This document shows, piece after piece, positions 2,706 to 2,957 of a DNA stretch of 64,000 bases. The stretch is taken from NCBI RefSeq assembly GCF_933509905.1, contig NZ_OW150024.1, positions 124,001 through 188,000 of the forward strand, given 5' to 3'. The notes below the pieces were generated by a model, which saw only the letters and a program-made list of their open reading frames with translations, searched no databases and had not been told where the DNA came from. The translations under genes and the position numbers were made by a program. The first letter of the stretch is position 1, and the number at the start of each line of letters is the position of its first letter. This DNA is from Trichlorobacter ammonificans (lineage in GTDB: Bacteria > Desulfobacterota > Desulfuromonadia > Geobacterales > Pseudopelobacteraceae).

Positions 2706-2957
2706 TTATGCAAGATCATCCATCAGGTCCAGCACAAAATTCTTGGCCCGTCCGGCCGGGGCGATCACCCCGTAGGCCATCGCCTCCTTCAGTTCGGCGC
2801 TCCCGGCGCCGGCAGCCTTTGCCAAGGCTGCGTGTTTCTTCAGTCAGGTGGGACACCCGACGGCCACGGCGCATCCCACCCGGATCAGCTCACGGGTTTT
2901 CGTGTCCAGCACCTCTTCGTACTCGAAATCGGCAAACAGTTTCTTGCGGATTTTCAC
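2706..2957 (-). CDS. AhpD-like (carboxymuconolactone decarboxylase family) selenoprotein, CxxU, UGA read through
   Basis: A gene that standard callers would split or miss, because codon 38 is TGA (2846-2844). Read through, it gives an 83-residue protein with a continuous small AhpD-like fold: an N-terminal helix with TRELIRVGCAVAVGCPT, residue 38, then LKKHAALAKAAGAG and a GVIAPAGRAKNF helix, ending in TAA. The TGA occupies exactly the second cysteine of the family's redox CxxC, giving Cys35-Pro-Thr-Sec38. Twelve bases after the TGA comes a perfect 8-bp hairpin with a GGCA loop, the form of a bacterial SECIS. The GTG start has AAGGAGG 8 bases upstream. CxxU AhpD-like proteins are a known selenoprotein type. 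The expected activity is thiol/selenol redox chemistry, with an unknown partner. The alternative is a pseudogene with one nonsense mutation, which the hairpin and the intact frame argue against. Confidence 0.85.
2812..2831 (-). promoter_or_regulatory. Predicted bacterial SECIS hairpin
   Basis: Within the coding strand of the AhpD-like gene, GCAGCCTT (2831-2824), loop GGCA (2823-2820) and AAGGCTGC (2819-2812) form a perfect 8-bp stem. It begins 12 bases after the TGA, so the loop lies about 20 bases downstream. That spacing, and a G-rich apical loop, fit what SelB recognises in bacterial SECIS elements. Confidence 0.8.

Follow-up and report, generated by a model that had tools for sequence, protein, structure and literature searches.

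A predicted GSU3128-family selenoprotein gene in a Trichlorobacter-type genome and the RNA hairpins behind its UGA codon

The selenoprotein family and the gene

An AhpD-related selenoprotein has been listed, as a "distant AhpD homolog", for Geobacter sulfurreducens and G. uraniumreducens (Zhang 2006, PMC1794560). Judged from organism and fold it is apparently GSU3128; the article does not contain the locus tag, and its passages on the protein describe neither the genus studied here nor its SECIS. A literature search for "GSU3128" and for selenoproteins of Trichlorobacter found nothing in the papers covered. NCBIfam holds a profile for the family, NF041047, named "GSU3128 family (seleno)protein". 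The stretch of 64,000 nucleotides that was analysed here (the window) carries a gene with the same AhpD relationship and Geobacter-type origin as the protein listed in 2006. In a profile search its product scored 151.9 bits against NF041047 (cut-off 110) in a full-length match (positions 1-82 of 84), and 50.4 bits against the Pfam CMD profile PF02627 (cut-off 23, 2.2e-13). The CxxU motif, with U from an in-frame TGA, is present as CPTU. The window protein is thus like the family in its CPxU motif and its Desulfuromonadia host, and unlike the rest of NF041047 in a genus-wide one-residue insertion near the N-terminus (LFADFEYEE) and in the RNA structure after the UGA, which is altered in its genus. 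The selenoprotein is not novel, but a further member of a named, functionally uncharacterised family, and ordinary for this group. The preliminary description had recognised an AhpD-like CxxU selenoprotein, which agrees with the CMD/AhpD fold and with a Geobacteraceae-type genome that has a complete Sec machinery. It had also called the gene hidden and missed by standard annotation. With an NCBIfam equivalog model at hand, annotation using these models can recognise the gene, and therefore this claim is out of date, all the more so since the Geobacter protein was listed in 2006.

All features of the window described here lie on the minus strand. The coding sequence (2706..2957) runs from a GTG at 2957-2955 to a TAA at 2708-2706 and has 84 codons including the stop, equivalent to 83 residues. 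Its lone internal stop is the TGA of codon 38 (2844..2846), in the context ...VGCPTULKKH.... Upon re-reading, the frame with its single interruption proved to be exactly as first described, and the AAGGAGG reported before the start is present at 2972-2966, 8 nt before the GTG, where it resembles a Shine-Dalgarno sequence. The start codon is ATG in nine of the 11 members of the genus, and this ATG at the same place supports the GTG start of the window gene.

The host genome comprises 3.06 Mb in one contig. The nearest relatives of the gene are Trichlorobacter and Geobacter records; the group of the window was named "Trichlorobacter-type" on the basis of these nearest records and of the N-terminal insertion that is common to the genomes of the genus. 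A look for selA, selB, selC and selD had been proposed, and the absence of selB or selC would have spoken against a selenoprotein. All four are present: selB (368 bits), selA (604 bits) and selD (348 bits) score above their cut-offs, as does the tRNA-Sec gene (73.4 bits; L012, G000:C1:191719-191813), which is located about 3.7 kb past the right end of the window. The selD gene (L010, G000:C1:2340369-2344292) itself contains one in-frame TGA close to the start codon (AAGUAAK). Behind it a hairpin can be read from the sequence, whose GGA loop is 17 nt away from the UGA, and SelD of this host is probably a selenoprotein, too.

It is very probable that the window gene is a member of the GSU3128 family with a selenocysteine at position 38. 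UGA-38 would be decoded by SelB and tRNA-Sec under the direction of an mRNA structure just 3' of it, and the predicted product would be a single helical unit of the CMD/AhpD fold with a Cys35-Pro-Thr-Sec38 redox pair.

Hairpins downstream of the UGA codon

For the sequence comparison, 137 distinct coding sequences were used, 126 from outside the genus of the window and 11 from within it. All 126 genes outside the genus contain CUUCGC[GGUC]GCGAAG or a variant thereof at positions 11-26 after the UGA. All six stem pairs are standard in each of them, and the G at loop position 18 after the UGA is invariant. At two of the pairs both bases have changed in a compensatory manner, in three genes from U-A to C-G and in three from C-G to U-A. 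Three genes (L023, L084, L086) preserve the pairing by exchanging the amino acids of both codons concerned (Leu for Phe, Arg for Lys). The synonymous difference outside the genus is 0.035 in codons +4 to +9, in comparison to 0.47 gene-wide. The same CUUCGC...GCGAAG stem also follows the UGA in more distant Sec-containing relatives from other classes of the phylum, which score below the family cut-off (L032-L036, with CSHU, CAHU and CPTU motifs). The comparison therefore yields strong evidence that the SECIS of the family would sit at codons +4 to +9. A CGUG loop closes the same stem in one gene from outside the genus (L182, G579); it is possible that it represents a step between GGUC and the CCUG loop found within the genus.

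The corresponding site in the window is 2817..2834, and the original stem is not formed there. Instead, two other hairpins follow the UGA. Hairpin A, GCAGCCUU[GGCA]AAGGCUGC (2812..2831), has an 8-bp stem, and its loop lies 20 nt after the UGA; the preliminary description had placed it 12 bases past the TGA, and it begins after exactly 12 nt (2831-2812). Hairpin B, CGGCGC[CGGGA]GCGCCG (2795..2811), was not part of that description; it follows directly after hairpin A, with its loop 38 nt after the UGA. Both are predicted in the window at a mean pairing of 0.99. Hairpin A is present in the minimum free energy fold of 71 nt (-27.2 kcal/mol); because 7 of 200 shuffles were as low, folding energy alone is weak evidence, and it is the comparison that carries the case. 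When the region was scanned against Rfam, there was just one sub-threshold leader match, located elsewhere.

That hairpin A is the working SECIS in this species, with hairpin B being incidental, has close to an even chance of being correct. The published bSECIS criteria are a loop of 3-9 nt with a G in the first two places, a stem of 4-16 bp, a distance of 16-37 nt from the UGA and a minimum free energy of at most -7.5 (PMC13188914). Hairpin A lies within all of these limits, with a 4-nt loop that has G first, an 8-bp stem, a spacing of 20 nt and -13.2 kcal/mol. In addition, the loop of the selD hairpin in the same genome, 17 nt after its UGA, indicates that the SelB of the host accepts near-canonical spacing. 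The GGCA hairpin of the preliminary description is therefore in line with the bSECIS model, but its distribution and the constraint in the genus leave it uncertain that it is the SECIS by itself. The GGUC loop is absent from all 11 genes of the genus. Seven of them have kept the old stem, with the loops CCUG, CUUG or UCUG, and three (L046, L048, L051) have a shorter form of hairpin A, CGCCUU[GGCA]AAGGCG, with the loop likewise 20 nt after the UGA, so that a stable hairpin with a G-first loop is common to only four of 11 members, including the window. Furthermore, synonymous sites are released at codons +4 to +9 within the genus (difference 0.236, 11 genes, gene mean 0.317) and frozen at codons +11 to +18 (0.023), where hairpin B is located.

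This genus-wide constraint speaks for a second possibility, which is hardly less likely than the first, namely, that the SECIS has moved in the genus and that SelB reads hairpin B, perhaps with hairpin A as a folded spacer. pS in the genus is 0.026 in codons +11 to +18, versus 0.38-0.51 in the compared regions up- and downstream, and the constrained stretch is about 21 nt further 3' than in the other genera. The constraint lies elsewhere in the 126 other genes and in two genus-level groups that were used as controls, for which the synonymous differences are 0.128 and 0.000 at +4 to +9, and 0.279 and 0.364 at +11 to +18. The single loop change seen in hairpin B, CGGGA to CGUGA, fits a G[G/U] loop pattern. 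The codon preference of the gene itself was rejected as the cause of the freeze at codons +11 to +18, as it leads to an expected difference of 0.499, compared to the observed 0.023. A column permutation gave P=3e-5 for this region, which was chosen after inspection, and about 0.002 after correction for about 70 windows. Against hairpin B it has to be considered that the genus is represented by only 11 distinct sequences, some of them almost identical, that its spacing of 38 nt is 1 nt over the published limit, and that it has little predicted pairing in four members (L017, L047, L053, L097), in which a longer alternative fold competes. A single RNA structure for all members of the genus was rejected, because the folds differ between members.

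The SECIS-like element of the relatives was observed directly, while which hairpin SelB might bind in the window is an inference. Tentatively, the SECIS may have been relocated by about 21 nt downstream in one genus, the old hairpin having been remodelled as a new hairpin or as a folded spacer. Part of this remodelling would have come about by amino acid changes, of which those of Phe43 and Glu48 to Ala are examples from the window.

Conservation of the UGA codon and of the coding sequence

The family survey covered 277 genomes of the class, of which 136 have a match above the NF041047 cut-off, and every one of these matches contains the TGA. The codon occupies the Sec position in all 137 distinct genes, and Lys at +3 and His at +4 are invariant. 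A Cys form of the family was found in neither the phylum nor the class above the cut-off, and lower-scoring proteins with Cys (e.g., CPYC, L037-L045) were rejected as such forms, because they belong to other CMD groups. Relatives with a codon other than Cys or Sec in place of the TGA had been named in advance as evidence against the proposal, and there are none above the cut-off. Further damage to the frame had been named as well; it is not seen among the family genes generally, and only a second gene copy in one genome (G532) has an extra TAG. This genome contains two near-identical copies (L200, L221), and the one with the TAG lies near a contig end; it could be a duplicate that arose in the assembly, or a copy in decay. 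In the genome of a congener, another CMD/AhpD-like protein, distinct from the family protein, is encoded across a TGA and has a CPDU motif (L108, G395:C1:1234191-1234322); it scores 45.3 bits against the GSU3128 model, under its cut-off.

The pN/pS ratio is 0.24 for codons -35 to -1 and 0.21 for codons +10 to +36. As far as can be judged from these sequences, purifying selection persists beyond the TGA at a similar level. As the terminal stop is also TGA in 43 of the 137 genes, recoding of UGA is local to the inner one. From the conservation of the codon and the coding constraint across it, which were both observed directly, we infer the insertion of Sec.

Two relatives do not fit easily to this interpretation. 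The genomes G611 (96% complete) and G621 (99%) contain an intact UGA gene with the canonical hairpin (L195/L080 and L185, respectively), in G621 on a contig of 290 kb, but selA, selB and tRNA-Sec were not found above the cut-off in either of them. Seven other genomes of the genus to which these two belong, which also have no detectable selB and selA, have no family match above the cut-off. The machinery may have been lost recently, the assemblies may have gaps, or the UGA may have some other fate, and the two intact genes count against the selenoprotein explanation. The view that the gene is a pseudogene, or that the TGA is a plain stop yielding a peptide of 37 residues, could draw on these two genomes and on the mere existence of an in-frame stop codon, but it is highly improbable in light of the pN/pS value after the TGA, the retention of the TGA at the catalytic position in all 137 genes and the restriction of further in-frame stops to the one copy near a contig end.

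Predicted fold, likely function and significance

The AlphaFold2 model of the window protein has a mean pLDDT of 94.7. The closest solved folds are O27018 (3bey) and RclX (7y4r), followed by AhpD-core proteins (best Foldseek E-value 1.5e-3, TM-score about 0.7), and the first two are also the closest solved relatives by sequence. Residues 23-72 of the NF041047 profile align with residues 118-167 of M. tuberculosis AhpD (1gu9/1knc) at equal lengths, and E23, C35, U38 and H42 align with E118, C130, C133 and H137. The codons of the invariant Glu23 and His42 are at 2889..2891 and 2832..2834, respectively, and that of Cys35, the partner in the CPTU redox pair, is at 2853..2855. An alignment with CMD proteins had been suggested in search of a Cys at codon 38, and indeed AhpD (Cys133), RclX and O27018 have Cys where the window protein has Sec. 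The proton relay proposed for AhpD includes E118, C130, H132, C133 and H137, and His132 is not found in every AhpD (PMC3141380). Four of the five relay residues match, one of them with Sec for Cys, whereas His132 is replaced by Thr37; this lowers the case for membership in the AhpD enzymes, yet remains compatible with similar chemistry. The window protein thus shares the helical core and four aligned relay positions with M. tuberculosis AhpD, and differs from it in its length (83 versus 177 residues), in Sec for Cys133 and Thr for His132, and in having no known AhpC partner.

Taken from sequence and model, the protein is most likely a thiol/selenol disulfide oxidoreductase of the CMD/AhpD fold, or a peroxidase partner. 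The redox pair acting on a peroxide or a disulfide would consist of the U38 selenol and the C35 thiol. The neighbouring genes, named from their sequences, are a convergent radC in several members of the genus, a gene for a HemY-like oxidase directly upstream in several, and a glnE-like or MATE-like gene elsewhere. No conserved neighbour that would point to a substrate was found across the lineages compared, and no family match was found on plasmids.

The hairpin that is fixed in 126 genes, together with the shift of the constraint in one genus, represents a natural experiment on SECIS evolution. If the relocation is true, it would be a traced case of the turnover of a bacterial SECIS inside a coding sequence, and it raises the question of how far from the UGA a bacterial SECIS can lie. 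For the family, the apparent all-Sec state in the class, with no Cys form above the cut-off, suggests that selenium is hard to replace here, and GSU3128 is a reasonable target for learning what small CMD selenoproteins do.
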